From NCBI RefSeq assembly GCF_013033355.1, contig NZ_WQDY01000001.1:434001-498000 (forward strand): a stretch of DNA of 64,000 bases. The letters run 5' to 3'. The notes under the pieces are model-generated. The model searched no databases and was not told where the DNA came from. It saw only the letters and a program-made list of their open reading frames with translations. Below, piece by piece: positions 8,296 through 26,902 of this stretch. Origin of the DNA: Ruegeria lacuscaerulensis. Its GTDB lineage: Bacteria; Pseudomonadota; Alphaproteobacteria; Rhodobacterales; Rhodobacteraceae. The stretch's first letter is position 1. Each line of letters opens with the position of its first letter. The position numbers and the translations under genes were made by a program.

Positions 8296-9426
8296 ATGAC
8301 CGAACGTTTCTCTTTTGACCTGAAGGCCACCGATGGCAAAGCCAGAACCGGAGTAATCCACACTCCGCGTGGTGAAGTGCGTACTCCGGCATTCATGCCG
8401 GTCGGAACGGCGGCGACGGTCAAGGCGATGATGCCGGAAAGCGTACGTGCGACGGGTGCGGACATTCTGCTGGGCAACACCTATCACCTGATGTTGCGTC
8501 CCACCGCCGAGCGGATCGACCGCTTGGGCGGGTTGCATAAATTCATGAATTGGGATCGTCCGATTTTGACGGATTCGGGCGGCTTTCAGGTCATGTCGCT
8601 TGCCGGGTTGCGCAAGTTGACCGAAAAGGGTGTGACGTTCAAATCGCATATTGACGGCTCCAAGCACGAGTTGACGCCGGAACGGTCGATGGAGATTCAG
8701 CGGCTTTTGGGCTCGGATATCGTTATGTGCTTTGACGAATGCCCTGCGTTGCCTGCTGACCGAGACCGGATTGCCTCGTCCATGCGTCTGTCGATGCGAT
8801 GGGCGCAGAGATCCCGTGATGCCTTTGGCGACCGTCCGGGCCATGCGCTGTTCGGCATTCAGCAAGGCGGGCTAGAGCAGGATTTCCGCGAAGAATCTGC
8901 CGAAGCGTTGAAGGAAATCGGCTTTGAAGGTTACGCCGTCGGTGGACTGGCCGTAGGTGAAGGGCAAGAGGCCATGTTCGATGTTCTGGACTTTGCGCCG
9001 GATATGCTGCCGGTCGACAAGCCGCGCTACCTCATGGGTGTTGGCAAACCTGATGATATCGTTGGCGCAGTCGCTCGCGGTATTGACATGATGGACTGTG
9101 TTCTGCCCTCGCGTTCCGGCCGAACAGGGCAGGTGTTTACGCGGTATGGTGTGGTGAACATCAAAAACGCCCGTCACGCCGACGATCCGCGACCGCTGGA
9201 CGAGCAATGCAAATGCCCGGCTTGCTCGAATTATTCCCGCGCGTATCTTCACCACGTGTTCCGTTCGAACGAGATGATCTCGGGGATGCTGCTAACGTGG
9301 CACAATCTGCATTATTTCCAGAATATCATGCAGGGAATGCGCGACGCCATTGCAACTGGAATATTCGAGGCATGGCAGGCCGAGTTCCACGCGCAGCGCG
9401 CTCAGGGCGATATTGAACCGATTTGA
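8296..9426 (+). CDS. tgt: tRNA-guanine transglycosylase
   Basis: A 376-aa TIM-barrel enzyme that exchanges guanine 34 of tRNA-Asp, -Asn, -His and -Tyr for the queuosine precursor preQ1. Seen are the substrate-binding [10 protein letters not shown] block, the GIQQGG and VGGLAVGE loops, the nucleophile region [13 protein letters not shown], and the zinc site [16 protein letters not shown] near the C-terminus. ATG 8296 follows GAGG. The two tRNA-Asp(GTC) genes at 28 kb are natural substrates. Length is normal for the bacterial enzyme. Confidence 0.97.
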
Positions 9427-9539
9427 TGCCGCACATTGCGTCAGTTGTGTTAAAATCGGTGGATATTCCGGCGCGGTGCCTTGCAGTCCAAAAAACCTCG
9501 GGTCATTCTGGATCACGACATACGGCGATGAGGTTGAAA

Positions 9540-9557
9540 TGGGGTATTTGAACCCCA
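9540..9557. promoter_or_regulatory. Inverted repeat upstream of lon
   Basis: TGGGGT-ATTTGA-ACCCCA is a perfect 6-6-6 inverted repeat about 80 bp before the lon start, in the 211-bp gap after tgt. It is preceded by a GGTTGAAAT stretch. It could be a stress-regulator operator for lon or a weak terminator of tgt (no T-tract follows). Nothing else in the gap was recognised. Confidence 0.3.
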
Positions 9558-9637
9558 CCTTAAGCGTCCAAACAGGAGACGGTCGGGCGTTGCCTTTATA
9601 GGGACCAGTACCGTCTTGCCAATGATAAGGATTGAGC

Positions 9638-12046
9638 ATGCAAGAGCCTCTGAATTCCTCATACCCGGTGCTTCCGCTGCGCGATATTGTGGTTTTTCCG
9701 CATATGATCGTGCCGCTGTTCGTGGGTCGGGAAAAATCTGTTCGCGCACTGGAAGAAGTGATGCAGGACGACAAGCAGATTTTGCTGTCCAGCCAGATTG
9801 ACCCAGGTGACGATGATCCCTCGATTGATGGGATTTACCGGTCGGGTGTGCTGGCCAATGTTCTGCAACTGCTTAAATTGCCCGACGGCACCGTGAAAGT
9901 GCTGGTCGAAGGTCAGGCGCGGGTGCAGATCACCGAATTTTTGGAAAACGAAGATTTCTTCGAAGCTCGTGCCGAATATCTGACCGAGATTCCCGGTGAC
10001 GTGACGACGACCGAGGCGCTGCTGCGCACCGTCGCGGATGAGTTCGAGCGTTACGCCAAAGTCCGCAAGAACATCCCCGAAGAAGCGCTGACCGCCGTTG
10101 GTGAAACCACCGAGCCTGCCAAACTGGCCGACCTGGTTTCGGGCCATCTGGGCATCGAGGTTGAGCAAAAGCAGGAACTGCTTGAGACGCTCTCGGTTAG
10201 TGAGCGGCTGGAAAAGGTCTATGGCCTCATGCAGGGCGAGATGTCGGTTCTACAGGTCGAGAAAAAGATCAAGACCCGCGTCAAATCCCAGATGGAGAAA
10301 ACGCAGCGCGAATATTACCTGAATGAGCAGATGAAAGCCATTCAGAAGGAACTTGGCGATGGCGAGGACGGCAGCAATGAAGTTGCCGAACTGGAAGAGA
10401 AAATCGCCGAGACCAAGCTGTCGAAAGAAGCGCGCGAAAAGGCCGAAGGTGAGCTGAAGAAGCTCAAGAACATGTCGCCCATGTCGGCCGAAGCCACCGT
10501 TGTGCGCAACTATCTGGACTGGATTCTGGCACTGCCGTGGGGCACCAAATCCCGCGTCAAAAAGGATCTGGGTCGCGCACAGGACATTCTGGATGCCGAT
10601 CACTACGGCCTTGAAAAGGTCAAGGAACGGATCGTCGAGTACCTTGCGGTTCAGCAGCGTTCGAAAAAGCTGAAGGGCCCGATCTTGTGCCTTGTTGGCC
10701 CTCCGGGTGTGGGTAAAACGTCTTTGGGTAAGTCGGTCGCCAAAGCCACGGGGCGCGAGTTCATTCGCATCTCGTTGGGCGGTGTGCGCGACGAATCCGA
10801 AATCCGCGGCCACCGTCGGACCTATATCGGGTCGATGCCCGGTAAGATCATTCAGGCTTTGAAAAAGGCGAAAACCACTAACCCGCTGATCTTGCTCGAT
10901 GAGATCGACAAGATGGGGCAGGATTTCCGTGGCGACCCGGCTTCGGCCATGCTTGAAGTGTTGGACCCGGAACAGAACAGCACGTTCATGGACCACTATC
11001 TTGAGGTCGAATATGACCTGTCCAACGTGATGTTCCTGACCACGTCGAACAGTTACAACATGCCTGGGCCTCTGCTGGATCGGATGGAGATCATTCCACT
11101 GGCTGGCTATACCGAGAAAGAGAAATCCGAGATCGCCAAGCAGCACCTGATCAGCAAGCAGGTCAAGAACCACGGCCTGAAGGCTAAGGAATTTGCGCTG
11201 ACCGATGACGCGCTGCAATCCATTATCCGCACCTATACCCGCGAGGCAGGCGTGCGGAATCTGGAACGCGAGATCGCCAAGGTTGCCCGGAAGTCGCTGA
11301 CCAAGATCATCAAGAAAGAGGCTGAATCCGTTACGGTGACGCCAGACAATCTGGATGACTTCCTAGGTGTACCCAAGTTCCGATACGGCTTGGCCGAACA
11401 GGATGATCAGGTCGGTGTTGTCACTGGTCTGGCATGGACCTCTGTTGGCGGCGATTTGTTGCACATCGAGGCGCTGAAACTGCCGGGTAAAGGTCGGATG
11501 AAGACCACTGGTAAGTTGGGCGATGTGATGAAGGAATCCATCGATGCAGCCTCGTCCTATGTGCGGTCAATCTCACCGCAGATCGGTGTTAAGCCGCCGA
11601 AGTTTGACACACTGGATATCCATGTCCACGTGCCGGATGGGGCGACGCCAAAGGATGGGCCTTCGGCAGGTCTGGCGATGGTCACATCGATCGTTTCCGT
11701 GCTGACGGGTATTCCGGTGCGCAAGGACATCGCCATGACCGGCGAAGTTTCGTTGCGCGGTAATGCGATGCCGATTGGTGGTTTGAAGGAGAAACTGCTG
11801 GCAGCTCTGCGTGGTGGCATCAAAACGGTTCTGATCCCCGAGGAAAACGAAAAGGATCTGGCCGATATTCCGGATAACGTGAAGGAAGGGCTAGAGATCA
11901 TCCCGGTCTCGCATGTCTCGGAAGTGCTGAAACAGGCTTTGGTCAGCGAACCAGAGCCGATTGAGTGGGACGAAGCGGCCGAGGAAGCCGCTGCCGCTGC
12001 GGCTAAGGCTTCTGATAATTCGGCGGCTTCTGCAACGACACACTAA
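9638..12046 (+). CDS. lon: ATP-dependent Lon protease
   Basis: The 802-aa cytosolic protease has the full LonA architecture: N-terminal substrate-binding domain (start YPVLPLRDIVVFPHMIVPLFVGR) and coiled coil to about 300, an AAA+ module with Walker A GPPGVGKTS near 354-362 and LLDEIDKM as Walker B, and a C-terminal serine/lysine protease domain with the catalytic Ser in KDGPSAG (about 675) and Lys in GGLKEK (about 717). It degrades misfolded and regulatory proteins. The ATG at 9638 is preceded by AAGGA. The C-terminal tail is an alanine-rich, low-complexity extension ending in Thr-Thr-His. A strong terminator follows, beyond which the integrated element starts. Confidence 0.98.
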   Translation: MQEPLNSSYPVLPLRDIVVFPHMIVPLFVGREKSVRALEEVMQDDKQILLSSQIDPGDDDPSIDGIYRSGVLANVLQLLKLPDGTVKVLVEGQARVQITEFLENEDFFEARAEYLTEIPGDVTTTEALLRTVADEFERYAKVRKNIPEEALTAVGETTEPAKLADLVSGHLGIEVEQKQELLETLSVSERLEKVYGLMQGEMSVLQVEKKIKTRVKSQMEKTQREYYLNEQMKAIQKELGDGEDGSNEVAELEEKIAETKLSKEAREKAEGELKKLKNMSPMSAEATVVRNYLDWILALPWGTKSRVKKDLGRAQDILDADHYGLEKVKERIVEYLAVQQRSKKLKGPILCLVGPPGVGKTSLGKSVAKATGREFIRISLGGVRDESEIRGHRRTYIGSMPGKIIQALKKAKTTNPLILLDEIDKMGQDFRGDPASAMLEVLDPEQNSTFMDHYLEVEYDLSNVMFLTTSNSYNMPGPLLDRMEIIPLAGYTEKEKSEIAKQHLISKQVKNHGLKAKEFALTDDALQSIIRTYTREAGVRNLEREIAKVARKSLTKIIKKEAESVTVTPDNLDDFLGVPKFRYGLAEQDDQVGVVTGLAWTSVGGDLLHIEALKLPGKGRMKTTGKLGDVMKESIDAASSYVRSISPQIGVKPPKFDTLDIHVHVPDGATPKDGPSAGLAMVTSIVSVLTGIPVRKDIAMTGEVSLRGNAMPIGGLKEKLLAALRGGIKTVLIPEENEKDLADIPDNVKEGLEIIPVSHVSEVLKQALVSEPEPIEWDEAAEEAAAAAAKASDNSAASATTH

Positions 12047-12065
12047 ATTGAGAGTGCTGTGGAAA

Positions 12066-12092
12066 GGGCGGAGTGAAAACTCCGCCCTTTTT
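12066..12092 (+). terminator. Rho-independent terminator of lon
   Basis: Perfect 9-bp stem GGGCGGAGT / ACTCCGCCC with a GAAA tetraloop, followed by TTTTT. Confidence 0.93.
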
Positions 12093-12147
12093 CTATTCGG
12101 ATTACCAAAGCCCTGGGGCCTTTTGATGAATCGCTAAAAGGAAAAAA

Positions 12148-12190
12148 TGGTGGGTGATAAGAGATTTGAACTCCTGACATCTTCGATATG
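12148..12190 (-). repeat. Left attachment site: duplicated 3' half of tRNA-Val
   Basis: These 43 bp match 26773-26815 at 38 positions. The copy includes the CCA end, acceptor strand, T-arm and part of the anticodon arm, but no 5' half, so it is not a tRNA gene. A 14-bp identical core (CTGACATCTTCGAT, 12174-12187) is the likely crossover region. Four of the five differences are two covarying T-stem base pairs. Directly beyond the CCA the minus strand reads a T-rich tract (CCATTTTTTCC), which is what remains of a tRNA terminator, so this end looks like the original host 3' end. Confidence 0.85.
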
Positions 12191-12643
12191 TAATCGCCTA
12201 TCAAGACCTAGTAGTTAGGGAAGCCCATACCCAATAACATCAAAGGGTTATGTCTGTCACAACTTGACCCTCCATACATCCAATACTAGATGTTGTGGTA
12301 CATAAACCCACACAGGACAATTTGCCTTCCTTGAGATGAGTCAAAAGGAAAAAGGTCAGCGAAACCAAAACTCAACACCTCTTTTTTTGTGGAAAGCCGA
12401 CACTGACTAGCGGACGTTTGGTTGCGAAGATGGTTGATGAAGATCAGCCTGAAACTGGTGTCCGCACACTTCTATCGTGATCTTCAACAAAGTTAGTTGG
12501 TAAGCCTTCAACATTTAGGACAGTCTCGCCCTCTCAACGACATGCACGCTAGTCGGGTGTACACAGCAATTGTGGTCTGATTGGCGTTGCTCGAGTAACG
12601 GCTATGGCATTCAGTTTTCCAGACGTTTGGTGCCTGAAAAAGT
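12191..12643. other. Left-end non-coding region of the island
   Basis: About 450 bp without a convincing gene. It holds the left arm-type repeat (12298-12315). An AAAGGAGGAA stretch lies just inside the next gene (12667-12676) and partly pairs with CTTTCCTCTCTTT further on. A minus-strand open frame (12508-12780) has no start signal or recognisable content. Confidence 0.5.
12298..12315 (+). repeat. Left copy of an 18-bp direct repeat (candidate integrase arm site)
   Basis: GTACATAAACCCACACAG matches 26684-26701 at 17 of 18 positions in the same orientation. It starts 110 bp inside the left core; the right copy ends 97 bp from the right core. In the circular form the two would flank the core nearly symmetrically, the arrangement of arm-type sites bound by the N-terminal domain of tyrosine integrases. 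Confidence 0.6.
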
Positions 12644-14098
12644 GTGTGTTCGGATATTGAGCCTATAAAGGAGGAAGTTTCCCTAAATCTTTCCTCTCTT
12701 TTTGAAACCGCCCAATACGGAAAATGTATGCGCAAAACAAACAACGACGTAACACGTCTACTTCGACACACATTCAACAAAGCCCGGTTTGCTTCGTTAG
12801 ATCGGTCTACGGTAACCGAAGCATCGAAGAACTTTGTATCCGAGTTGATAAACCGAACTATTGCTTACGAAGCACAATACCACCCCCGAAAACGTGCCAG
12901 ACGACAGAACGACTTGGACAACTTCAAATTGGCAGTTGGAGCGTTGGCTGCCGATCTAATCAAGCACAGCGCGAATGAGGCCGCCAAAGGCTACATGTAT
13001 CGACCATCCGACAAAGACGAACTTGCACAGACCTTGGTGAGTAGTGATGCCTTTATCAAGCTTCGAACCTACTGGATGGGAATGGGGCTGATGGAAGAAA
13101 CTGGCTTTGTGCATTTCCGAGCTTCGATTGACGACAGTGACCAAAACACAACGTACAAAAAAGCGCGGAGGTTCAGAGCCACACCAGCTCTGTTGGAACT
13201 GGCCCAGAGCTACCAACTCACAGCGGCCAACGTCACCGAGCACTTTGAACGCTGTCACAGTCACGCCAGTGTCTTGCAGGTACGCAGTACCAAAGACGGC
13301 GACTACAATTTCCCAAAAGGTGGCAAGCTCATCAAGCAGAGTGGCCCCAGATTTCAGGAGCGCAGAACCGAAGTAGAGACCCTGAACAGGTATCTCGCCC
13401 GTCACAAGTTTAACCTATCAGATCAACCAATGTTGCGACGTATCTTCAATTGCGGTGACCGGAAAGGGTTCGACTTCAATCTCGGGGGCCGTTTCTATTG
13501 TGCCTCTGACGACGATTGGATGCAGATGCCGAAGGAAAAACGGAAAGCCATTATGATTGATGGTGAACCAACGTGTGAAATTGATGTTTCTTCCAGTCAG
13601 CTATCCATTCTGTACGCAATCCAAGGTGAGACCCTCGCCTATGATCCCGATCCTTATCAGATCGACGGGATATCGAGAGAGGTCACAAAACGGATCATTG
13701 TCGCCTCTATCGGGCGGGGGAAACCCCCATCCCGCTGGCCGAGGTCTTTCAACGACGACTTCATTTCCGAACATGGCTACCACCCTAGGGATCGGTACAA
13801 GCTGAAGGACGTGGTTTCGTCGATCTTGGCCCGACACCCGGTTTTGTCCAGTCTCGAACCCGAAAAACTGGATTGGGCTATTTTGCAGTTTGAAGAAGCA
13901 GAGTGTTTTCTAAAAGCAATGCAGTGCCTCTATGAGTTGCAAGACATACCGTCCCTTCCGGTTCATGACAGTCTGATCGTGAAGCAACGGGATCATGAAT
14001 TGGCGTCAACTGTGCTGAAGGATGAGTATAAAGAACGGTTGGGCTTCATCCCTCAAGTGAAGATGACCTTGGACAGTGGTTTTGCCATGGCCGCCTAA
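12644..14098 (+). CDS. Uncharacterised island protein with family-A polymerase-like motifs
   Basis: A protein of up to 484 aa. Three segments in the C-terminal half resemble, in order, the palm motifs of family-A DNA polymerases and T7-type RNA polymerases: EIDVSSSQLSILYA around D314 (motif A, DYSQIELR in PolA), REVTKRIIVASIGRG around K349 (motif B-like), and LPVHDSLIV around D442 (motif C, VHDE or HDS). A GGRFYCA...MPKEKRKAIMIDG block precedes motif A; I recall similar blocks in unannotated proteins of other mobile elements. The N-terminal half is basic and helical with no nuclease or primase signature recognised. The start is unsure: the GTG at 12644 has no good Shine-Dalgarno, and an ATG at 12728 is the next option. 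It may replicate or repair the element; polymerase activity is inference only. Confidence 0.6.
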   Translation: MCSDIEPIKEEVSLNLSSLFETAQYGKCMRKTNNDVTRLLRHTFNKARFASLDRSTVTEASKNFVSELINRTIAYEAQYHPRKRARRQNDLDNFKLAVGALAADLIKHSANEAAKGYMYRPSDKDELAQTLVSSDAFIKLRTYWMGMGLMEETGFVHFRASIDDSDQNTTYKKARRFRATPALLELAQSYQLTAANVTEHFERCHSHASVLQVRSTKDGDYNFPKGGKLIKQSGPRFQERRTEVETLNRYLARHKFNLSDQPMLRRIFNCGDRKGFDFNLGGRFYCASDDDWMQMPKEKRKAIMIDGEPTCEIDVSSSQLSILYAIQGETLAYDPDPYQIDGISREVTKRIIVASIGRGKPPSRWPRSFNDDFISEHGYHPRDRYKLKDVVSSILARHPVLSSLEPEKLDWAILQFEEAECFLKAMQCLYELQDIPSLPVHDSLIVKQRDHELASTVLKDEYKERLGFIPQVKMTLDSGFAMAA

Positions 14099-14535
14099 GG
14101 GCTATTTGAGGCTACCTTATGTAGTCCACTAGGTAAGGTACTTTATTGGGAGGGGGTACTATCCCCCTTATTGCAAGTCATCCGACACGTTGTCCTATAA
14201 GAAGTATCTTAGGCATTACTCTGAAGCGTAAGGACAGAAATGCTGTCACTGAGAACTTCGGGTTGCCTGAGCGTGTCTGGGACCTGAGCCCATCGGAATG
14301 ACTAAAAAGCGGACGAAACTGACATCGCTTCAGCCGAACAAGCGTTCTCCGCCTAAGTGCTCTAGACTAATCGTTCGATATATGGCGCAATTCTGATGCT
14401 CAAGAACTTCGGTCTTTGGTGACACTGACTGACATACATCTTTGAAACTGCTAAGCGGTGTGACAACGTTTTGCTATACTGCAAAACTGTGTGCTACTTT
14501 GCAGGCTTCAACCATGAATTTTATTAGGAGAAGAC
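14099..14535. other. Intergenic region of the island with one hairpin
   Basis: About 440 bp between the polymerase-like gene and the exported protein gene. The only clear structure is a small hairpin, AGGGGG-TACTAT-CCCCCT (14151-14168), about 55 bp after the upstream stop, which lacks a T-tract and is at best a weak terminator. No other gene was supported; a 32-codon basic frame near 14300 has no ribosome binding site. Confidence 0.4.
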
Positions 14536-15081
14536 ATGCTAACTAAACTTCTTGTTTCTGCATTTTTCTTGATTATGCCTGCGTTCAGTTTTGCTCAAAC
14601 AGCTGAGCGCAGCGTGACCATCGAAGCCGATGCGACAGTTAAGTCGGTTGACCCGGACACTCGGCTTATAGTGCTGCAAAACTCAGAGACAGGCGAAGAA
14701 GAGACCATTGTTGCAGGAGCGGAAGTCGTAAACTTCGACCAAATTGAAGAAGGCGACAAGGTCAAAGCGGTTTACACACTGGGGGTAGCTGCAAACATGG
14801 CATTCCCTGGCGAGGTCGACAGTATGGTTGAATTGGAAGGCCGGGCGGCAGAGGGATCAACACCGGGCGTAGCCGCTGGAACGATGGTCACGTTAATTCT
14901 GACTTTTGTTTCCTTCGACGCCGCGAATTCAATAGCCACTGTGACGGACAGCAGCGGCACAGAACAAATGATCGAGGTTGAAACAGAAGTTGGTCGTGAG
15001 TTTGTTGAGCAACTTAGCCAGGGAGACAGAGTAGCTCTGAGCTTCACGGAAGGTCTTGCTGTGGGAATTGTCGAAGAATAG
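14536..15081 (+). CDS. Exported two-repeat protein of unknown function
   Basis: The 181-aa protein has a classic signal peptide (MLTKLLVSAFFLIMPAFSFA, cleaved before QTAER). The mature acidic part appears to be two copies of one beta-rich unit. Residues about 30-88 (ATVKSVDPDTRLIVLQN ... EEGDKVKAVYTLGVA) line up with about 125-180 (TFVSFDAANSIATVTD ... SQGDRVALSFTEGLAVGI); both run beta-strands, D-x-x-x-x-I-x-x-L/V, then a G-D-K/R-V turn and a final strand. This looks like a tandem OB- or SH3-like periplasmic fold. The ATG follows a strong TTAGGAGAAG. It is convergent with the phosphate transporter gene. Confidence 0.8.
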   Translation: MLTKLLVSAFFLIMPAFSFAQTAERSVTIEADATVKSVDPDTRLIVLQNSETGEEETIVAGAEVVNFDQIEEGDKVKAVYTLGVAANMAFPGEVDSMVELEGRAAEGSTPGVAAGTMVTLILTFVSFDAANSIATVTDSSGTEQMIEVETEVGREFVEQLSQGDRVALSFTEGLAVGIVEE

Positions 15082-15311
15082 GTGTCCGCAGCGCAGCCTC
15101 ATCAGGCGTACGTCTTGAGATTGTTATATCGCCACCGTTGGAACAACTTGTCCAACCGCTTCAAGCGCCCCAACGAAGCCCACAGTTTTATCGTTGTGGC
15201 CGTTGTGGGGGCACGTTTGGTACAGTCGTTCCATGCGGAAATATGCAAAACAAGAATTCGTGTGGACAACAAATAACTTCGCCGCATTGCCGAAATTGAC
15301 CTATTAACCAA

Positions 15312-17096
15312 TTATGCCGCCTCTGCGGCGATTTCGACTGGTAACTGTGTCTTCGCGACCCGTTTTGTCAGTGTGTACATGTGGCGCAACTGCTCAATAA
15401 AAGTCATCAGTAGTCGAACACGCTCCAAGTACCGGGGTTCGTCGATGTTTAGTCGCTTGGCGTGCCTTTCGAATAGCTGGTCGGAAAGGGTTCTAATATC
15501 GTCTTTGAGCAAGAGCACTTCTTGGGCAGAGCGTTCGTCACTATTCCCCACAGCCTGGACTGCGAGTTCAAGACTTTCTCTCACACAAGTCCAAAGACCC
15601 TGCACCATATCTCGCGTTGTTTCACTACTTTCGGAAAAATCGCCATCGATGAAGATTTTGAGCAACCCAACCATATCCGCCTCAACGATGTCAGCTGCGC
15701 TCTCGATATTCATAATCGCGGCGACAAGTTGCTGATGGGTATCGCTCTCGCTTTCCGTGAGTGAATTTTGTCGTATTCGACCAAGATACTTCATGATTTC
15801 TGAACTTAGAATGTCCACTTCGTCGTCACGCTTTGCGACCGCATCCAACGCTCCTCTTTCGTAGCGTTGAGCCCCTTCACCCAACGCGTCCATCATTTCC
15901 AAGGCGATATGTCCGGCCCGCTCAATCTCTCTTCTGGCGTTTTCAAGTGCGATCGTGGGCGCTTCCAGCGCCGCGTCATCGAGGAATTCGGACTTAATGA
16001 TTTTATCCATTGGCTCAGGTCGATCTGGGACCAGTCTTTCCGCGAGGCGCGCGAAGGCCGTTGTGAAACCAATAAATATCATAGTGTTGAGGACATTGAA
16101 CATGGTGTTGGCATTTGCGATCTGCCGAGGAACCTCCGCCGCAAGTTTGTCTTTTCCAACCAGACCTTCCGCAGCGGCGGGCGAAACACTTACGGCTATG
16201 TCCGCAAGAATGCTCAGAAACGGAAGCCAAATTATGACGCCTGCAATATTGAACAAGACATGGACAACAGATGCGCGAACCGCTTCGACTGGCTTGCCAA
16301 GTGCCGCAAGCAAAGCGGTGACACAGGTCCCGATATTGGCTCCTAAGGCCAAAACTATCCCGGCCTGAAGAGACAGCAAACCTTCGCTTGCCATCGCAAT
16401 TGCAATACCAACAGTGGCAGCGGAGGATTGAACCAACCCAGTGAATAGTGCTCCCGCCAGAATGCCAAAAAGCGGACGTTCCATGCTAGCAAGGATTTCC
16501 AGAAAGGGTTCATAGCTGCGCAAAGGCTTCATACCCTCACTCATCAGACCCATTCCGTAGAACACCAAACCGAGGCCCATTATCATCATACCCATGTATT
16601 TGGGGCGCTCATTTTTGCTGCCAAAAGTCATAAAAAAACCTAGTGCAACTGCAATAAGGGAATACGTAGAGAGGTTGAAAGCCAGCAGCTGCGCCGTGAC
16701 AGTGCTGCCGATATTTGCTCCCATGATTACGCCGACGGATTGCGCCAATGTCATGACACCGGCGGTAACAAACCCCACGACCAACACTGTCGTAACAGAA
16801 GAAGAATTCAGTACACCGGTAACAAATGCACCGGTGGCGGCGCCCGTGAATCGATTCACTGTCAACTTCTGAAGAACATCGCGCAGGGTGTTTCCTGCGG
16901 CCTTTTTTAAGCCCTCAGACAAAAGATCCAATCCAGCTAAAAAGAGCGCCAAGCCGCCAAAAAGTCCCATCCCCAATTGGAGCCAATCTACTTGCTGCTC
17001 TGTTGTTTCTGTGGGCTGTGCATAGGCTGCATTGAAACTCAAGAAAGCGAAACTGATAAAAAGATATGGCAGCAAACGAACTATCGTTTTCGGCAT
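15312..17096 (-). CDS. Na+/phosphate cotransporter family protein (NptA/YjbB type)
   Basis: A 594-aa inner-membrane protein with a signal-like N-terminus, then two inverted Na/Pi-cotransporter repeats. The repeat signatures are LNSSSVTTVLVVGFV near residue 100 and LVQSSAATVGIAIAM near 220 (QSSS/QSSA motifs of the SLC34-like family). After the last helix comes a soluble, helical PhoU-like domain from about 380 to the end (EIERAGHIALEMMDALGEGA), as in YjbB. It would move phosphate with Na+; bacterial members can work as exporters. One repeat has Asn in place of the usual Gln. Start at 17096 behind GGGAGGGTGACCC. It lies downstream of the sulfatase gene on the same strand, after a 328-bp gap. 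Confidence 0.92.
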   Translation of the reverse strand: MPKTIVRLLPYLFISFAFLSFNAAYAQPTETTEQQVDWLQLGMGLFGGLALFLAGLDLLSEGLKKAAGNTLRDVLQKLTVNRFTGAATGAFVTGVLNSSSVTTVLVVGFVTAGVMTLAQSVGVIMGANIGSTVTAQLLAFNLSTYSLIAVALGFFMTFGSKNERPKYMGMMIMGLGLVFYGMGLMSEGMKPLRSYEPFLEILASMERPLFGILAGALFTGLVQSSAATVGIAIAMASEGLLSLQAGIVLALGANIGTCVTALLAALGKPVEAVRASVVHVLFNIAGVIIWLPFLSILADIAVSVSPAAAEGLVGKDKLAAEVPRQIANANTMFNVLNTMIFIGFTTAFARLAERLVPDRPEPMDKIIKSEFLDDAALEAPTIALENARREIERAGHIALEMMDALGEGAQRYERGALDAVAKRDDEVDILSSEIMKYLGRIRQNSLTESESDTHQQLVAAIMNIESAADIVEADMVGLLKIFIDGDFSESSETTRDMVQGLWTCVRESLELAVQAVGNSDERSAQEVLLLKDDIRTLSDQLFERHAKRLNIDEPRYLERVRLLMTFIEQLRHMYTLTKRVAKTQLPVEIAAEAA

Positions 17097-17424
17097 GGGT
17101 CACCCTCCCGTTTTCATCCGAACTGCATAGACAGGATTTAAAGTTAGCAAACTGAAGCTGGATACCTTTCTCGCCTGCTTTCCGAATCCATAAACAACAG
17201 ATTGGTCCTTGGTAGATAAAGTTGCAGGAATTCGGTCAGATTCCGAATAAACGTCGGCAGTCTGACGCAATATGCGTTTTGGACCTACTTTGTTCCAGAC
17301 ACGTCGACGGATTAAGTAATTTCCGCGCATTGCGAACAGCTTAGCAGACCTTCAAGCGAAGCAGAATCGCGCGGCATCAAGGGAACGAAGAGTTTGTGAA
17401 GAAAGTTCAACAGAACACATTTGC
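17097..17424. other. Gap between sulfatase and phosphate transporter genes
   Basis: About 330 bp. No hairpin terminator, repeat or convincing small gene was seen; it probably holds the transporter promoter. A 76-codon minus-strand frame here has no recognisable content. Confidence 0.4.
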
Positions 17425-18864
17425 TTATTCAGCGGGGATGTATGGATCCTTAGTGCCAGGCTTAATTGGAGGCTCTTTTTGAAGTGAGATTGCGTGCTGA
17501 GTAAGTTGTTTCAGAGCTGCCTGCGGTACCCAAGTCTCAGGAAACAAGACATTCTGTGTCTCACCGGGGTCTTTATAGAGATTGTAGATCCGCGGCACGC
17601 CGTAACTTACGGTACCTGTCAGAATGTTCTGCTGCTCTTTGAGGTGTACTTTCCAGTTCCGCCATTTCACGCCCCAAACGTCGTTACCCATATAAACAAT
17701 TACGCCTTCCCGATTTGATTTCTCCTTATTTCCAAGGAAAAACTCGGTCTGGTCGATACCATCTATTATCCGGTCGTCTGGAACTGAGCCGCTCGCTATA
17801 TTGGCGAATGTGGGGAATAAATCCATTTCATGAATAATTTCGTCACTGGTTACACCAGCCGGAATTTTGCCTGGCCAACGCACTGCGAACGGCACTCTCA
17901 AGCTGCCCTCGAACCCGGTGAATAGCGAGCCGCGCCAAGGACCTGCATTGCCCGGTATGAAATATTCAACGGAGGGAGTATTTGATCCTTCAGGCAAGAT
18001 TTCAGGACCATTGTCGGCCGTGAAAATAAAGATCGTGTTGTCTCGTATTCCGAGATCGTCAATCGCGTCTAATAGCATACCATTGTAAGCATCGATCTGT
18101 GCCAGCACATCTGCAAATCTACCGTTGCCGGTAGAGCCCGCAAAATCCGGATGGGGAATGAGGGGGTAGTGTGTCATTGTGTAAGGCAGGTAGAGGAAAA
18201 AAGGCGTTTCAGATGCGGCGTGACGAGCCATAAAGTCGATCGCGCGCCTAGTTAACTCACCGTCGATCAATGCCCGCTGCTCAAGATCATAGTCCAAAAC
18301 CTGCTGCGGTGTTGAACCTCGAATGCCTTCATAAATGTGGGTTCCGGCAACACCGCTTTCGGAAAACCCATCAAGGATGGACCAAGGTGTTTCGTCGCTT
18401 GAGTTTGGGATTCCGTACCACTCCTCAAAACCCTGATCAGTAGGAAATCGACCTTCTGTATGACCAAGGTGCCACTTGCCGAACATGCCAGTTGCATACC
18501 CCGCATCAGACAGCATTTCGGCCATGGTAACTTCCCACTGCACCAAGCCATATACGCCCCCTCCTAAAGGGATTGTACCATTGCCGGTCCGAACAGCGTA
18601 GCGACCGGTCATTATCGCTGCGCGTGATGGTGTGCATTGAGACTCGACGTTGAAGTTTGTGAGTCTCAAACCTTCAGCAGCCAATTGGTCTAGACGTGGA
18701 GTCGCTGCACCACGCGTTATTCCGCCGCCATTAAATCCAGGCTCGCCCCAACCGAAGTTGTCCATGAACACCAAAACAATGTTGGGTTTCTCGGACGCGT
18801 AAGCCGCCGTGCCGAACAGAGTCGTGACTGCAACTGCAAATGCTATGAATGTTCGACCCATCAT
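17425..18864 (-). CDS. Exported sulfatase (arylsulfatase family)
   Basis: The 479-aa protein has a signal peptide (FIAFAVAVTTLFGTAAYA) and the alkaline-phosphatase-like sulfatase fold. The nucleophile motif CTPSRAAIMTGRY is at residues 77 onward; its cysteine is the residue converted to formylglycine. Metal ligands are visible in FMDNFGWGEPG near 35 and FTADNGPE in the middle. A formylglycine-generating enzyme is needed and is not in this window. It probably releases sulfate from a sulfated organic compound in the periplasm. It follows the outer-membrane barrel gene with a 43-bp gap, so the two form an operon. The start is the first of two adjacent ATGs behind GGAG; a longer frame would overlap the upstream gene. 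Confidence 0.92.
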   Translation of the reverse strand: MMGRTFIAFAVAVTTLFGTAAYASEKPNIVLVFMDNFGWGEPGFNGGGITRGAATPRLDQLAAEGLRLTNFNVESQCTPSRAAIMTGRYAVRTGNGTIPLGGGVYGLVQWEVTMAEMLSDAGYATGMFGKWHLGHTEGRFPTDQGFEEWYGIPNSSDETPWSILDGFSESGVAGTHIYEGIRGSTPQQVLDYDLEQRALIDGELTRRAIDFMARHAASETPFFLYLPYTMTHYPLIPHPDFAGSTGNGRFADVLAQIDAYNGMLLDAIDDLGIRDNTIFIFTADNGPEILPEGSNTPSVEYFIPGNAGPWRGSLFTGFEGSLRVPFAVRWPGKIPAGVTSDEIIHEMDLFPTFANIASGSVPDDRIIDGIDQTEFFLGNKEKSNREGVIVYMGNDVWGVKWRNWKVHLKEQQNILTGTVSYGVPRIYNLYKDPGETQNVLFPETWVPQAALKQLTQHAISLQKEPPIKPGTKDPYIPAE

Positions 18865-18907
18865 CTTGCTCTCCAAAACGAAATTTGAGTAATGCAGGGG
18901 CTCAGGA

Positions 18908-19729
18908 TCAGAATATATATTTGACCCCGCCCTCGAAGTTCCAATCCAGTGGTTCGTCTGGTCCCAAGCCGACACCAGGGCGGCCGTAAAGAGTGACGCC
19001 GGATTTCCACGTGTATCCAACCTCCGCATCGAAAACACCGCCCTGGGTATCGTTTTCCCAATCCACAATGTATTGAGGATTCAAGAGCATATAGAGCTGC
19101 TGCTCAGGCCATTGCTTTAGGAAAAAGACATCAAATCGGGTCTCATTGACATCGTCGCCGACGTTTGATCCCACATTAAAAGCATGCTGTATGCCGGGGA
19201 AGAGCCCGGAACTCTTAATGCCGAACGGATTGAAGAACGCGTAAAATAACTGCGGACCCAATACAACGTCATCGTCGCCGAGGATGTCCTCTGACGCGGT
19301 GGGCAACCATACCTCTAATCCGTATGCGAAAGCTTGCCGAGTCTCGGGATTCAGATAGGGAACGGTCAAGACGCGAAAGTTGATATCCCCAAGGCCCGCC
19401 TCATCAAAAAAAAAGCCGGGGCCAGTAACATCAACTGATCGATGAGGAATTTTTATCCGAAACTGCCATTTACCTTTGGCGAACGGCGTTCGGTATTCAA
19501 ACGTAGTAACGTTTCCCGTGTTTCCGCCTCCTAAATCTTGATATTCATGATAAAGGCGGACGTCTTTCTGAAAATTAATCGGGTTTGTTCCGGTTTTGTC
19601 ATCTTTAGAACGGAATTTTTCGTCGGAAGCTTGTTCTGCTTCTGAAGCTTCTTGTGCCAGAGCAGGATTGATTGTCTGCAATGCGGTTAGGCAAACAGAA
19701 AACGCTAGGGACAAAAAATAATATTTCAT
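18908..19729 (-). CDS. Outer-membrane beta-barrel protein (MetA-pathway/phenol_MetA_deg-like)
   Basis: A 273-aa protein with signal peptide (MKYYFLSLAFSVCLTALQTINPALA), an acidic low-complexity linker, and then alternating polar/hydrophobic strands ending in the aromatic C-terminus GVKYIF expected for an outer-membrane barrel. The central GLGDINFRVLTVPYL and YGLEVWLPTASED stretches resemble the PF13557 family annotated near aromatic-degradation genes. It likely lets the substrate of the co-transcribed sulfatase across the outer membrane. The start at 19729 is behind CGGAG. A conserved 22-bp element lies about 95 bp upstream. Confidence 0.85.
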   Translation of the reverse strand: MKYYFLSLAFSVCLTALQTINPALAQEASEAEQASDEKFRSKDDKTGTNPINFQKDVRLYHEYQDLGGGNTGNVTTFEYRTPFAKGKWQFRIKIPHRSVDVTGPGFFFDEAGLGDINFRVLTVPYLNPETRQAFAYGLEVWLPTASEDILGDDDVVLGPQLFYAFFNPFGIKSSGLFPGIQHAFNVGSNVGDDVNETRFDVFFLKQWPEQQLYMLLNPQYIVDWENDTQGGVFDAEVGYTWKSGVTLYGRPGVGLGPDEPLDWNFEGGVKYIF

Positions 19730-19823
19730 GACGCACTCCGAATTCCATTGGGTTCGCCACTTTCTGAAGTGGCGATCAGGAAGACTTGTAGCGGTTACGC
19801 TACTATCCTTGGTCTTAGGAAGT

Positions 19824-19845
19824 CGTTGCCATTTCACGACAAAAT
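19824..19845 (-). promoter_or_regulatory. Candidate operator A, upstream of the barrel/sulfatase operon
   Basis: Read on the minus strand (towards the operon) this begins ATTTTGTCGTGAAATGG and matches 22381-22402 at 21 of 22 positions. Similarity extends outward: a TGCCG lies 3 nt before both copies and a TTCCTxAGA block follows 3 nt after both. The core fits TGTCG-T-N8-AA, close to the half-site described for the AraC-type regulator ArgR of Pseudomonas; the block 21 bp on could be a weak second half-site. Confidence 0.6.
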
Positions 19846-20012
19846 TTGCGGCACTACCAATGCAGCTTTCGCGGTTTCACATGCTAAAGTGAAGAAAACT
19901 GGCCACGCAAATTGAATATTGAGTCAAACTCTGTGGAAAGGACTACAGGCATACTCAGAAGTGAAAATGAGAAAGCTAGCGAAACAGCTTATTGAACCGC
20001 GGCAATTGGGGA

Positions 20013-21113
20013 TCATCTTCGCGGTTCTTGGATAAGCAGAGACGGAAGGCTCACAGCCTCGCTGCCTGCGACCTCTCCGAGAGAATTAGTCTCCTTCAAG
20101 CCTCGGCCAATAAGTTGAACAACCTTAGGCGACTCAGCAAATTTTCCGTGGCTCTTCGTTCCAACGTCGTCGACTTCGCTGAGATCAATTACTGAAACAC
20201 CAAGGTCTTCCAATTGCTCAATGTTTGCTTGCCCAAGTCGTGTTTGTCGTCCAGCAATTAAGCTTGAAAGCTTCAACGCGTAGTCGGCCTTCGAAGTAAG
20301 GATGTATACGTCATCTACGACTTCGGGGATCAATTGCAATTGAGCACGAAACAGGTCGAGATCGATGTCCGGTGAAGCCAGAATAATGTTCTTCAGTCGG
20401 TTCTTACGATCAAAATGGCCAGTTGTCGTTGCGTAGACAATGCCTTCCATTATGGCAAAGCTGCCCATGGACCATGCTAAGATATCAACCCTGTTCGCAT
20501 TGCTGCGCGTCAGCAAATCTGCGGCAGTCACCATTTGAACTCTAGATTGAAGTGCACTGTTAAGGTCGTAAACATATCGTGTGGCGCTAGCGTAAGATGC
20601 CCAGGAAAAAAGTACCGGAACGCCTTCGAAACCTGAGTCTTGCACGAATTGGGTTAACCTAAGTGTCGCGTCGCTCAGGGTCATATTATACCCGTGTACG
20701 AAACCTAAGATCGTTCGATCTTCTGGAGATCTTCTTTCCAATTCTCTATTCATACTTGATAGGAACTTACCGTCGGTTTCATACACCACAGGTTCAATTA
20801 CAGTGAAGTTCTTGCGCGGGTCTGGTGGATTTGTTTTCGATCTCTCTATCTTTGAGGTCGTGTGGTTAGGGGGCACGGTTACAACGACTGACGAAAGGCC
20901 GAGTTGCCCTGATCGTTGACGAGAATATAGTTCAGCTTCAACGCCACTTCGAGCTCTGGATGTCATGATGAAAACTTTATGGCTTGTTATACCCGGCACC
21001 TGGGATGGCGACACATCCGGATTTTCAATGCCAATAAGATCCGGCGGACGCGTACAACTTAGTAGTGCAAGGCACAAAACTAGGGAGAACAATGCTTGCC
21101 GAAGTATGCCCAT
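20013..21113 (-). CDS. Alpha/beta-hydrolase lipoprotein (DUF900 family)
   Basis: A 366-aa protein with a lipoprotein signal (LVLCLALLSC, lipobox cysteine near residue 20), so it is probably membrane-anchored in the periplasm. The hydrolase core shows the FVHGYN oxyanion segment and the nucleophile elbow AWSMGS, with Asp in SPDIDLD as a likely triad member; the pattern matches DUF900 esterase-like proteins. The usual first Gly of GxSxG is Ala. The start is the ATG at 21113, the preceding in-frame codon being TTG. It lies between the AraC-type regulator gene and the barrel/sulfatase operon, all on the same strand. Substrate unknown. Confidence 0.88.
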   Translation of the reverse strand: MGILRQALFSLVLCLALLSCTRPPDLIGIENPDVSPSQVPGITSHKVFIMTSRARSGVEAELYSRQRSGQLGLSSVVVTVPPNHTTSKIERSKTNPPDPRKNFTVIEPVVYETDGKFLSSMNRELERRSPEDRTILGFVHGYNMTLSDATLRLTQFVQDSGFEGVPVLFSWASYASATRYVYDLNSALQSRVQMVTAADLLTRSNANRVDILAWSMGSFAIMEGIVYATTTGHFDRKNRLKNIILASPDIDLDLFRAQLQLIPEVVDDVYILTSKADYALKLSSLIAGRQTRLGQANIEQLEDLGVSVIDLSEVDDVGTKSHGKFAESPKVVQLIGRGLKETNSLGEVAGSEAVSLPSLLIQEPRR

Positions 21114-21191
21114 CAAAAAGCGCGCTCCCTGTTAGTAAATGAGACCTCCACATTCGGTCAGGAAAGTTCCGCAAGATTTTGCAAGCTGGGT

Positions 21192-22223
21192 CTACATCAA
21201 TCGTGCTGACGCGGTTATTTCAGATCTGTATTTGCTTGGTGAAACTTCGAATACTCGTGTAAACGCGCGTGTGAAATGTGAAGTGGCGGAGTAACCAAGC
21301 TCGTTGCCAATGATCGCCACTGTCGCCTCACTTCCTCGTAAAAGCTCACATGCCCTTTGCATTCGAACTCGCTCCAATAAATCTCGGAATCCGATACCGT
21401 GTGCCTCAAGCCTACGTTGCAAGGTGCGAGGGCCCATTGCCAAAGCGCGGGCGGTTTCCTCAAGACCGCTCTTTCCATCCGGCAAGTGTATCTTGATCAG
21501 GTGAGCGACCGACCCAATAAAATCTAGCGGCAAATCTTCACCCAAATGCTTTAGGTCGGCGAGGGAAACCAGTGCATCGCCATTGGAGGCTTGAATGGCC
21601 CGTGCTTCTTCGAATTGATCCCGGTCCAAAACGAACGCAAAGCTGTCCGAACAAAAATGCACAGGCGCTTCGAATGTATCTTCATAGTCTTGCTCCCAAG
21701 GTCCACTTGAACACGCTAATTTTATGCTCTTCGGGCACCATTCAGGACCAAGATAGGCTCGAATAACGGCCTCAAGAATACGCAGGGTCATATCACCTGC
21801 TTGGCGAAAACCAACAATAGACTGGAAAAGGTTCTGATAACCTATAGTGCACTCATTTTCTGAGTACTGTACTGAGATTTCACTCCCACTTTCGTAATAC
21901 GGTAGCCCGGTTTTAAACTTAGCGATCGCACCTTTCAGCGTTTTTGCGGAAAGGACAAAATCTGCCATTGCACCGTATTCGCTCAGTTCTATTCCTTCAG
22001 TAGCCTTAAGGCCAAAAGATCGAATGCCTGTTACTTCAGCGGCGTTTCGGTACAGCCCGATAATGTCTTTCATGGGGATGACAGCGTCACGGTCGTCCAA
22101 AATTTCGTAAGGAAGAATCTGCCGATCTAACGTGCGGCGCAGCGCTTCTTCTCCACCCCAAGCTAGAATTAACTCAGGTAGCCCATTTAAATCGCTAACG
22201 CGCCCAAACGTCATTTCACTCAT
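21192..22223 (-). CDS. AraC-family transcriptional regulator
   Basis: The 343-aa protein has an N-terminal arabinose-binding-like domain of the PF12625 type (about 15-210, with SFGLKATEGIELSEYGAMADFVLSAKTL) and a C-terminal double helix-turn-helix domain from about 240. Typical blocks are ARALAMGPRTLQRRLEAHGIGFRDLLERVR and IGNELGYSATSHFTRAFTRVFEVSPSKYR. This is the OruR/ArgR-like branch, which senses small metabolites. It sits between the two gene sets that share the 22-bp element, which makes it the prime candidate for the protein that binds it. The start may be 22223 or 22214; neither has a strong Shine-Dalgarno. Confidence 0.93.
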   Translation of the reverse strand: MSEMTFGRVSDLNGLPELILAWGGEEALRRTLDRQILPYEILDDRDAVIPMKDIIGLYRNAAEVTGIRSFGLKATEGIELSEYGAMADFVLSAKTLKGAIAKFKTGLPYYESGSEISVQYSENECTIGYQNLFQSIVGFRQAGDMTLRILEAVIRAYLGPEWCPKSIKLACSSGPWEQDYEDTFEAPVHFCSDSFAFVLDRDQFEEARAIQASNGDALVSLADLKHLGEDLPLDFIGSVAHLIKIHLPDGKSGLEETARALAMGPRTLQRRLEAHGIGFRDLLERVRMQRACELLRGSEATVAIIGNELGYSATSHFTRAFTRVFEVSPSKYRSEITASARLM

Positions 22224-22690
22224 AACTAAATATCATGGCTGCGGGAGCCTTATGTCAACTTGGCGTAGATTCAGCGCTTTCCTCTAGCTTCGAGACGGAA
22301 CGCCGCCGCGCTGTGAGAAAACACGCGGCTTGATGACCATTGCAAAGCAAAGTTTTGCAATCGATCAAGCCATTGCCGGGATTTTGTCGTGAAATGGTAA
22401 CGCCGTTCCTCAGAAAGATAGAGCAAGCGAAACTTGATCATCATAACATCGGCATGAGGCTACGATCTACCATTCCAGAAGCGGTGGACGGCGACAAAGC
22501 GTATTTGCTCAATGGTTGGATTACTCAGTCCAGCCCGAGCGATTGCAATAGGTTTCCTCCGGTTTGAGAGAAACTGGTCGAATGAGACACTTGTGGCTGG
22601 CTTGGAAAGCAATCCCAGCAAGTGAGCCTCCTCGCAAGCCAATGCAAAAGCAAGCGACGTTGGAGTAGTTATGTATTTAGGGAAAGAAAA
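22224..22690. other. Intergenic region between AraC and MFS genes
   Basis: About 470 bp. It holds operator copy B (22381-22402) and, just before it, an A/T-rich imperfect inverted repeat TTGCAAAGCAAAGTTTTGCAA broken by the spacer (22341-22360 region). Short open frames on both strands here lack start signals and are not called. Operator B is nearly 290 bp from the MFS start, so a long leader or an unrecognised small gene is possible. Confidence 0.4.
22381..22402 (+). promoter_or_regulatory. Candidate operator B, upstream of the MFS gene
   Basis: A plus-strand copy beginning ATTTTGTCGTGAAATGG, 21/22 identical to the element in front of the barrel/sulfatase operon and oriented towards its own downstream gene in the same way. 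The flanking TGCCG and TTCCTCAGA blocks are also shared. Confidence 0.6.
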
Positions 22691-23986
22691 GTGAACGCCC
22701 AAATTCTGTCACTACGCGCACTATTTGTTTCTGTTGGTGCGATACAGTTAGCAACAGCAGCCCTGGGAACGCTAGTCGCTCTTCAAATCGCGTCGATTGG
22801 AGGAACTCAAGAAGCCGCTTCGATTGTCGCTGCAGCTTATTCGCTTGGGTTTATGGTTGGCTGTTTTTACATCGCTAAGCCGCTAGCTCGGATTGGGCAC
22901 ATCCGGGCCTTCACGGCGGCCGCTGCGATTTGCACGCTTTTCACTCTAATTCTGTCGAGTACCCAAGAACCAGTCATAATGGTGTTTGTTCGGTTCATCA
23001 CCGGGCTCGCGACGGCAGGTCTATACGCTATCGGCGATGCTTGGATCAATGACACTGCCGGACCTGAAAACCGAGGACGCATACTCGCAGTTTACGCAAT
23101 CGTTCTCGGCATCGTGTCGGTTCTGAGCCAAGGGATTGTCATTAACCAATCAGCCGAGCTTTCAGAAGCCTTTGTTCTTGTCTCGATGTTCTATTGCTTC
23201 GCAATTGTCGTGCTTGCAACAACGCGGACCAATCCTGCGAGTCCCGGAGGAACAGCGAATATTAGGATTAGCGAAGTCTTCAGAGAGTCGCCCACAGCGT
23301 TCGTCGGCGCTTTTATAAACGGTCTTCTAGTCACTGTTATGTTAACAGTTGTTCCGTTTCGTGCCAGCGTGCTGGGGCTCGATCCCAGGACAATTGCTAT
23401 TGGAATTGGATTGGCCTACGCGGGCCGCATTTTTTTCCAGTTCCCGCTCGGAAAAGCCTCTGACGAAATGGACCGTCGGATTTTGATTGCTGGCGTCTCT
23501 GTATTTACCGCTATGATACTGTTACTGTTCGTTGTTTTGGGCAAGGGCGACGCCGCGGCTGCCAAGGGCGACTATGGTATAGGGTGGCAGCTTTTTGGGT
23601 TTGCTTTGGTTTTCCTCTTGGGTGGCTTGCTTCTCCCAACCTATTCGTTGCTAGTCGCGCATGGAATGGATCGAACTGTGCCGGTCTACGTTCCTTCTGC
23701 AGCAGTAACGCTACTCTTCGTTTGGACGCTCGGCGGTGTGACGGGGCCTGTTCTTGCAGCAATTGTGAGTAAGTTATTTGGCGATGGAAACATATTCTTG
23801 ATGTGCTTGGTCATCGCGCTCACGTTCTCACTGTTTGTCGTTTGGCGTAGGAATCGCCGCGATAGTGTACCGCAAGCTGCTCGAGCTACTCATGTGCCCG
23901 GTACCGCGACAAGCGTTGAGATGACGCCTGAGCAAAAGCGAGTACCGGTTTCTGCCACGATTTTGGGGGCAGAAGAGGAACTATGA
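22691..23986 (+). CDS. MFS transporter (YcaD-like)
   Basis: The 431-aa protein has twelve predicted helices with the major facilitator pattern: a first half with FMVGCFYIAKPLARIGHIRAFT (motif A-like loop) and FVRFITGLATAGLYAIGDAWINDTAGPENRGRI, a central loop, and a second half with FPLGKASDEMDRR. The WIND/RGR stretch fits the YcaD-like subgroup. The start is the GTG at 22691 behind AGGGAAAGA; a longer GTG-initiated frame from 22622 has no such signal. The C-terminal 45 residues are polar and disordered. The shared operator suggests it moves the substrate or product of the sulfatase route across the inner membrane. Confidence 0.9.
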   Translation: MNAQILSLRALFVSVGAIQLATAALGTLVALQIASIGGTQEAASIVAAAYSLGFMVGCFYIAKPLARIGHIRAFTAAAAICTLFTLILSSTQEPVIMVFVRFITGLATAGLYAIGDAWINDTAGPENRGRILAVYAIVLGIVSVLSQGIVINQSAELSEAFVLVSMFYCFAIVVLATTRTNPASPGGTANIRISEVFRESPTAFVGAFINGLLVTVMLTVVPFRASVLGLDPRTIAIGIGLAYAGRIFFQFPLGKASDEMDRRILIAGVSVFTAMILLLFVVLGKGDAAAAKGDYGIGWQLFGFALVFLLGGLLLPTYSLLVAHGMDRTVPVYVPSAAVTLLFVWTLGGVTGPVLAAIVSKLFGDGNIFLMCLVIALTFSLFVVWRRNRRDSVPQAARATHVPGTATSVEMTPEQKRVPVSATILGAEEEL

Positions 23987-24185
23987 TACTTATTAGCTTC
24001 GCGAGCTTCAGCTTTGTTTCGGATAGGCGAGTGTGTCGGGTGCCGCTTGGTATCACATTGCGAAGTAGCCAAGATGAGGCCTTACACCCGCAGATACAAG
24101 CATCATCACGCGGTCACAATCCGATAAGAAAATTTTTGAAATGCAATTCACGTTAAGTGTTGGGAACTCATTGAGTGAGGAAAAA

Positions 24186-25597: not shown

Positions 25598-25629
25598 AGC
25601 CGCTTTGGATAATTCTGAGCGGCTTTTTT
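25598..25629 (+). terminator. Rho-independent terminator of the serine recombinase gene
   Basis: Stem AGCCGCT (25598-25604) / AGCGGCT (25618-25624), 13-nt loop, then a run of six T. It lies about 30 bp before the integrase start, implying separate control. Confidence 0.85.
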
Positions 25630-25657
25630 GTACGCCCAGCGCAAGAAAGACCAACTC

Positions 25658-26683: not shown

Positions 26684-26701
26684 GTACAAAAACCCACACA
26701 G
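26684..26701 (+). repeat. Right copy of the 18-bp direct repeat (candidate integrase arm site)
   Basis: GTACAAAAACCCACACAG, 17/18 identical to 12298-12315 and in the same orientation. It sits between the integrase stop and the tRNA. Confidence 0.6.
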
Positions 26702-26847: not shown

Positions 26848-26902
26848 GTAAGGCGGCGTATTACAGCGACTTTGAAACTGCTGCAAGTGCCATTTTGGAG
26901 GC

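Follow-up and report, generated by a model that had tools for sequence, protein, structure and literature searches.

A TV-Pol-type family-A polymerase on a bounded, tRNA-Val-integrated element of Ruegeria lacuscaerulensis

Which kind of polymerase, if any, is encoded by the gene at one end of an integrative element in Ruegeria lacuscaerulensis, and what could it do for that element? The gene occupies positions 12644-14098 (forward strand, 484 aa, GTG start) of the window, that is, the whole stretch of 64,000 nucleotides that was analyzed. The initial annotation had read it as a single-gene, family-A-like polymerase of a mobile element and had considered such a gene to be new. This last point has to be withdrawn: TV-Pol, an integrase- and resolvase-linked family-A-like polymerase of bacterial islands, was described in 2008 by Iyer, Abhiman and Aravind (PMC2579912), and its phage branch was described as divPolA2 in a 2024 paper (PMC11348598). 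The gene is a further TV-Pol of the kind linked to resolvase and integrase, and its island has well-defined ends. What the present data add is the nesting of divPolA2 in this family (under midpoint rooting), the loss of a steric-gate residue in 72/73 palms, and a winged-helix-like order of elements in the N-terminal half.

Single-sequence searches with the window protein returned no family in Pfam, only sub-threshold matches in NCBIfam (RepA_IncFII, 13 bits vs a cut-off of 70), one insignificant match among the PDB sequences and, in PHROGs, phrog_4756 alone (function unknown, 4.9e-30). The same phrog is matched by 24/24 rows of alignment A1, which consists of 24 sequences and from which the A1 profile was built. 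The protein has one match in its own genome, the ORF itself. Six genome contigs hold relatives at 48-80% identity, and relatives occur in 24/198 genomes of the same taxonomic family as well as, with the A1 profile, in 24/398 genomes of a phylum sample (own genome included in both counts). With tblastn (E up to 0.01), matches occur in 190 phage records (50,697 searched) and in 3 plasmid records (72,556 searched). Six scans of viral_contigs gave nothing in three cases, two near-copies of the query in one, and three and five relatives in the remaining two. In BFVD, eleven rows have E <1e-14, one of which is titled DNA polymerase of phage Barba31A.

Ten residues are invariant in A1 (24/24), namely R266, G282, R283, R300, D314, Y338, R345, K349, H441, and D442. 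In a broader set, used for residue counts and a tree and comprising 73 distinct near-full palms out of 107 ORF hits, D314, D442, R283, R300, Y338, and K349 are found in 73/73, followed by R345, H441, and G282 (72/73 each), R266 (69/73), and D336 (68/73). Motifs A, B and C thus stand in the ORF in family-A order, as had been claimed, with D314, K349 and D442 kept in every palm. Motif A covers residues 312-325 (13577-13618, forward strand; catalytic D314, codon 13583-13585; steric-gate position Q319), the core of motif B is R345xxxK349 (13676-13690, forward strand; placed by conservation and alignment to PolA), and motif C covers residues 437-448 (SLPVHDSLIVKQ; 13952-13987, forward strand) with H441-D442 at codons 13964-13969. 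An extra signature beyond these three motifs of the initial annotation is a G-R hairpin upstream of motif A (residues 281-286 with G282 and R283; 13484-13501, forward strand), which was aligned to the TGR motif of Pol I. This constancy bears on whether the palm could be a degenerate, non-catalytic fossil. Short fingers, a missing proofreading domain, the sporadic spread within the taxonomic family, and an in-frame stop that interrupts at least one copy (L004, 9926-11329) would fit such a relic, but all 73 palms keep both Asp as well as the Arg and the Lys despite identities of 20-86% between the window palm and the 32 palms aligned to it, and a fossil is therefore hardly credible.

The assignment to family A was examined by profile comparison and by structure prediction. 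When 33 palms were aligned by hhalign to 18 PolA-type sequences, the match extended over 190 columns (E = 1.3e-4, probability 54%) and placed the hairpin Arg, D314, R345/K349, and H441-D442 opposite their Pol I counterparts. The PolA alignment (A9) comprised 17 of 24 fetched PolA loci and T7 DNA polymerase; L128 and L131 were left out because the wrong ORF had been picked, and five others were left out to limit near-copies. PolA was hence aligned through motifs A, B, and C, whereas six T7-like RNA polymerases aligned through motif C alone (E 0.0036). Among all PDB sequences, the A1 profile ranked DNA polymerase nu at the top (E 0.045, motif A-B region), chain m4D2 second, and mitochondrial RNA polymerases from the third place onward (E 0.34, motif C region); the rest includes an amidotransferase, ribosomal L35, aspartyl-tRNA synthetase, and a putative regulator, and all of these matches are weak when taken singly. 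A palm profile gave T7 DNA polymerase -0.1 bits and did not report T7 RNA polymerase. The A1 profile had no match in the record of T7 or in that of Ma-LMM01, which the 2008 paper mentions as a phage with TV-Pol (PMC2579912).

An AlphaFold2 model built from 15 sequences reached a mean pLDDT of 81.8 and a pTM of 0.69. Its best 50 Foldseek matches in the PDB, which are those listed, are all family-A DNA polymerases by title (best E 1.7e-5), including KlenTaq and its variants, the apicoplast and Aquifex enzymes, theta, and DpoZ; a further 699 matches have E >0.001, and the TM-scores, taken by query length, are low at 0.20-0.32. The structural check suggested in the initial annotation thus came out in favor of a palm. 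Together with the PolA profile alignment, this agrees with a family-A-like palm on an integrative element, and three kinds of evidence concur that the window protein is, as judged from sequence and predicted model, a family-A palm. As for the thumb, which in TV-Pol consists of two antiparallel helices, the model shows one long helix (residues 235-251) before the hairpin, and a homologous thumb is absent from divPolA2 according to the divPolA2 section of the 2024 paper (PMC11348598). The model also touches on the start codon. Residues 1-33 have pLDDT <50, and the alignment with L001 and L002, the nearest relatives, begins only at about residue 31, so that the GTG start is doubtful and the ATG at 12728 (M29) may be the true one.

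Two positions of the active site depart from Pol I. Five residues after the motif A Asp, PolA-type rows have Glu in 18/18 and T7-like RNA polymerases Gly in 6/6; we take the Glu of PolA to be the steric gate of Klenow against rNTPs. The 73 TV-Pol palms have His (36), Gln (9, with Q319 in the window), Tyr (7), or others at this position and Glu in just 1/73, i.e., the steric-gate Glu of Pol I is missing in 72/73. Eight residues after the motif B Lys, Tyr is present in 18/18 PolA-type and 6/6 T7-like sequences, and the TV-Pol palms have Asn (34), Gly (19), Phe (9), or others, with Tyr in 3/73. Judged from the sequences, the two changes could possibly relax the choice of sugar or give space for an initiating nucleotide, and the loss of the steric-gate Glu leads to a direct prediction on sugar selectivity.

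The same positions are relevant to another reading, in which the protein is a single-subunit RNA polymerase that transcribes the genes of the element. This was raised for divPolA2 in the divPolA2 section of the 2024 paper, where RNA polymerases appear besides DNA polymerases among the structural matches (PMC11348598). The missing steric-gate Glu is shared with the T7-like enzymes, PF00940 (RNA_pol) matches 2/24 members weakly (best E 0.012), and the profile search ranks mitochondrial RNA polymerases after DNA polymerase nu. On the other hand, all six T7-like enzymes possess the motif B Tyr, which only 3/73 TV-Pol palms have, the hhalign match to these enzymes spans motif C only, and every listed fold match is a DNA polymerase. 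We consider an RNA polymerase quite unlikely.

The N-terminal part (about residues 34-232; 12743-13339, forward strand) was delimited on the predicted model. In the full model, helix 88-108 is followed by strand 118-121, helices 124-127 and 134-147, and strands 150-155 and 174-179. This order (helix-strand-helix-helix-strand-strand) is, as we assume, that of a winged helix, and the element order of the model suggests that the N-terminal half resembles one. Modelled alone, the domain reached a mean pLDDT of 79.1 and had no significant fold match in the PDB (best E 0.98), its weak matches including MarR-type proteins and a heat-shock-factor domain. The strands of the present model differ from the 2008 prediction for the TV-Pol N-terminal domain, which was all-helical (PMC2579912). 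A link to plasmid initiators of the RepA type (PF10134) was also tried and rejected, as the profile matched the N-terminal alignment with E 0.29 over 16 columns; the PF10134 profile was made from 8 of 12 fetched loci, the ORF picked in the other four not being an initiator by eye.

Does the gene belong to an element with recognizable ends? It lies in a 14.6-kb element that is inserted in tRNA-Val(cac) and flanked by copies of the 3' end of the tRNA. The left copy, attL (12148-12190), is the displaced 3' part of the tRNA gene, and the right copy, attR (26773-26815, 88% to attL), lies inside the restored 3' end of tRNA-Val(cac) (26773-26847, reverse strand), the insertion target, whose present 3' end would have come from the element. 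The direction of this exchange can be read from a congener. Among the lon loci of 12 congeners (about 1.5 kb on each side, tRNA scan), only that of L164 shows tRNA-Val(cac) intact, immediately downstream of lon; the BLAST comparison in L162, L163, and L168 covered the wrong side of lon, these loci being reversed. Window positions 12143-12187 are identical to the intact tRNA-Val region of L164 in 45/45 positions, whereas the tRNA region at the right end (26773-26865) is 92% identical over 93 nt; attL would thus preserve the original chromosomal 3' end, the new one having been brought by the element. L164 is a partial empty site, as the other neighbor of its tRNA is unmatched in the window. The differences in the T-stem of the new 3' end vs the congener are, by eye, paired changes, so that the tRNA-Val should stay foldable.

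The recombinases that had been placed at the other end of the island are confirmed there by Pfam matches and by the att repeats: a small serine recombinase (24999-25550, forward strand; PF00239 Resolvase, 2.7e-41) and a tyrosine integrase (25628-26671, forward strand; PF00589, 1.8e-20, and PF13102). A candidate integrase arm site of 18 nt (12298-12315, forward strand) recurs as a second candidate copy (94%) at 26684-26701 (forward strand), and the motif is absent from six related loci searched. According to the ORF list and Pfam, cargo fills positions 14536-24680 and includes a secreted-looking protein, a Na/Pi cotransporter, a sulfatase, a DUF900 hydrolase, an AraC-type regulator, an MFS transporter, and two ORFs of 309 and 179 aa without Pfam match. 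The ORF at 14536-15081, 437 bp after the TV-Pol gene, has a sub-threshold match to the OB-like PF16450 (22.3 vs 23 bits), and its start is secreted-looking by eye. A Pfam scan of 10 island ORFs found no helicase, nuclease, or primase, and the initial annotation was right in that exonuclease, primase, and helicase partners are absent from these ORFs. As a side observation, a 22-nt inverted repeat (95%; 19824-19845 and 22381-22402) encloses about 2.5 kb of the cargo.

Two sister elements with defined ends were found in congeners. In Ruegeria atlantica (L002), a 7.0-kb element (9519-16567) occupies tRNA-Val(tac) between repeats identical in 40/40 positions, and in R. arenilitoris (L001), a 10-kb element (9355-19366) occupies tRNA-Lys between 66-nt repeats at 97%. 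Both carry TV-Pol at the left and the serine recombinase and integrase at the right. The window integrase shares 88% identity with its L002 counterpart and 38% with the one in L001, and the window TV-Pol is 80% identical to that of L001 (its sister row in the tree) and 73% to that of L002. Since the integrase is thus nearest to L002 and the TV-Pol to L001, TV-Pol and integrase modules seem, on these identities, to have been exchanged between elements residing in different tRNA genes. Within the L001 element, a 233-nt direct repeat (80%) was noted at 13934-14166 and 16057-16289.

The genes around TV-Pol raise the question of whether it is itself cargo, i.e., a repair or anti-phage polymerase rather than the replicase of the element. 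Defence-like genes are indeed carried by L002 (AIPR/AbiU) and L001 (a DUF2971/PDC-S31 protein, besides an HATPase), and a C5 methylase and PDC-M33A adjoin TV-Pol in L005, where element ends were not found. Repair is also an option for the phage members in the divPolA2 section of the 2024 paper (PMC11348598). However, the window element, L001, and L002 all keep TV-Pol but differ in cargo, and 15/37 loci have an integrase at most 1 kb away from the gene. A constant TV-Pol amid differing cargo and so close to an integrase does not behave as would be expected of a cargo gene, and this reading is considered unlikely. On a Sphingomonas plasmid (L039), Vsr, HNH, and methylase genes adjoin TV-Pol, the ends of that element being undefined.

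The adjacency to integrases was counted over 37 loci (the window, 6 genome contigs, 2 plasmids, 8 IMG/VR contigs, and 20 genome regions; phage records, the remaining same-family hits, and phylum-wide hits were left out) by means of a local integrase profile seeded from three examined loci. Including the 15 loci mentioned above, an integrase lies within 5 kb in 24/37 and within 10 kb in 27/37. Serine recombinases were found in the stretches of 19/37 loci and either or both recombinases in 32/37; for four of the five loci with neither, a contig end is at most 0.5 kb away. The 24 same-family genomes have 4-27 integrase matches each (PF00589, among the matches listed), so that, as a rough estimate, chance would place an integrase 10 kb or less from any particular gene in about 1/10 of cases or fewer. 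L003, L005, L006, and L054 share the order tRNA, integrase, TV-Pol on the same strand; att repeats were found in none of L003, L005, and L054, and L006 has only a 30-nt repeat unlinked to a tRNA. In L064 (2236-10834), a pair of TV-Pol genes on opposite strands is separated by about 6 kb, and two integrases lie in this interval.

How does the window gene compare with known families? The literature search yielded no paper on the window element and none for phrog_4756, and divPolA2 only in PMC11348598. TV-Pol was described with a lambda-type integrase, a gamma-delta-type resolvase, and restriction-modification genes as neighbors, and was predicted to prime and to polymerize (PMC2579912). The window protein shares with it the minimal family-A core, the Arg of the hairpin (R283, 73/73), the two catalytic Asp, the RxxxK, and an Asp of the fingers, which is taken to be D336 (68/73), and the islands share the lambda-type integrase and gamma-delta-type resolvase, with restriction-modification neighbors in relatives. 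From the D5-linked subset of TV-Pol it differs in that a D5-like helicase is not among the 10 ORFs of the window element. A figure legend of the 2008 paper names Roseovarius nubinhibens (PMC2579912), whose genome has exactly one family member (L005, 47% identical to the window protein). The window protein would thereby be related, as judged at the level of the species, to a TV-Pol member named in 2008.

CCPol, which comes from a different class of element and was counted as TV-Pol by Iyer in 2008 (PMC2579912), is the member with reported activity. According to the 2020 paper, it polymerizes DNA in vitro and can also prime when combined with its partner MP, and the authors were aware of no other biochemically characterized TV-Pol (PMC7581432). 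CCPol-MP and PolA-SSB resemble the window gene as family-A polymerases of chromosomal mobile elements and in a priming role, which for the window gene is a proposed one, but have an OB-fold partner and a helicase in the same operon (PMC7581432 and PMC10061031, in their available parts), neither of which was seen in the window element. Likewise, the ORFs downstream of TV-Pol in L001, L002, and L005 are, by eye, other genes than an OB-fold partner. Pipolins (piPolB) are also mobile elements with their own polymerase (PMC10061031, available part), which is of family B, whereas the 50 listed PDB matches of the window protein are all of family A.

We therefore return to the role of the gene. TV-Pol probably serves to replicate the tRNA-targeted integrative element that carries it, priming and copying the element once it is excised, a reading to which we assign a probability of roughly 0.6. 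The integrase would cut out the element as a circle, the N-terminal domain would bind element DNA, and the palm would begin DNA synthesis and extend it, by which either the excised circle would be replicated or a second strand made after entry of single-stranded DNA. A host helicase would serve, since the element shows no helicase gene of its own. This reading draws on the invariant catalytic residues, the family-A match, the element ends, the integrase and resolvase, the recombinases found in 32/37 loci, and the two sister elements, with the activity of CCPol as an analogy. No conserved partner gene was seen beside TV-Pol, which counts against a priming role, as CCPol required its partner MP for priming (PMC7581432, available part). 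Moreover, members in barbaviruses coexist with a regular DNA polymerase and primase according to the divPolA2 section of the 2024 paper (PMC11348598), so that replication would not be the sole possible role. The hhalign probability of 54%, the low TM-scores, and the missing match in Ma-LMM01 weigh against this reading as well.

A bolder form of this reading is tentative and rather doubtful: TV-Pol could be a self-contained initiator, primase, and polymerase, whose winged-helix domain would sit on the origin and whose gate-less palm, which has neither the steric-gate Glu of Pol I nor the motif B Tyr, would start without a primer and without a helicase or partner from the element. Within family A it would then correspond to piPolB, driving tRNA-targeted islands of 7-15 kb and having been taken up by phages, and these islands would carry swappable defence or metabolic cargo. 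For the 2008 prediction of priming and polymerization, the locus offers a clean test case, with a bounded element, one recognizable replication gene, a 7-kb sister, and a congener with an intact tRNA.

Finally, the phage branch can be tied to the island family. With the window protein as query, tblastn hit H1 (E 8e-8) falls on the gene of AUR84708 (MG592441), the representative of divPolA2 that was modelled in the 2024 paper. As in the window protein, divPolA2 combines a palm with an unusual N-terminal domain and lacks an exonuclease; it differs in that its phages have their own regular polymerase and in that an integrase is unmentioned in the divPolA2 section of the paper (PMC11348598). The main text of that paper names TV-Pol once, in the Background. 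In the tree of 73 palms, under midpoint rooting, nine phage rows fall into one starred set of ten (97/87) together with one bacterial row, and with this root phage divPolA2 nests inside the island TV-Pol family. The phage genes would accordingly have to be read differently. Phage genomes may hold more than one member, as three were found in Vibrio phage vB_CoeS_P1 (PV206818, L037) and two in PWH3a-P1 (HQ634156, L053).
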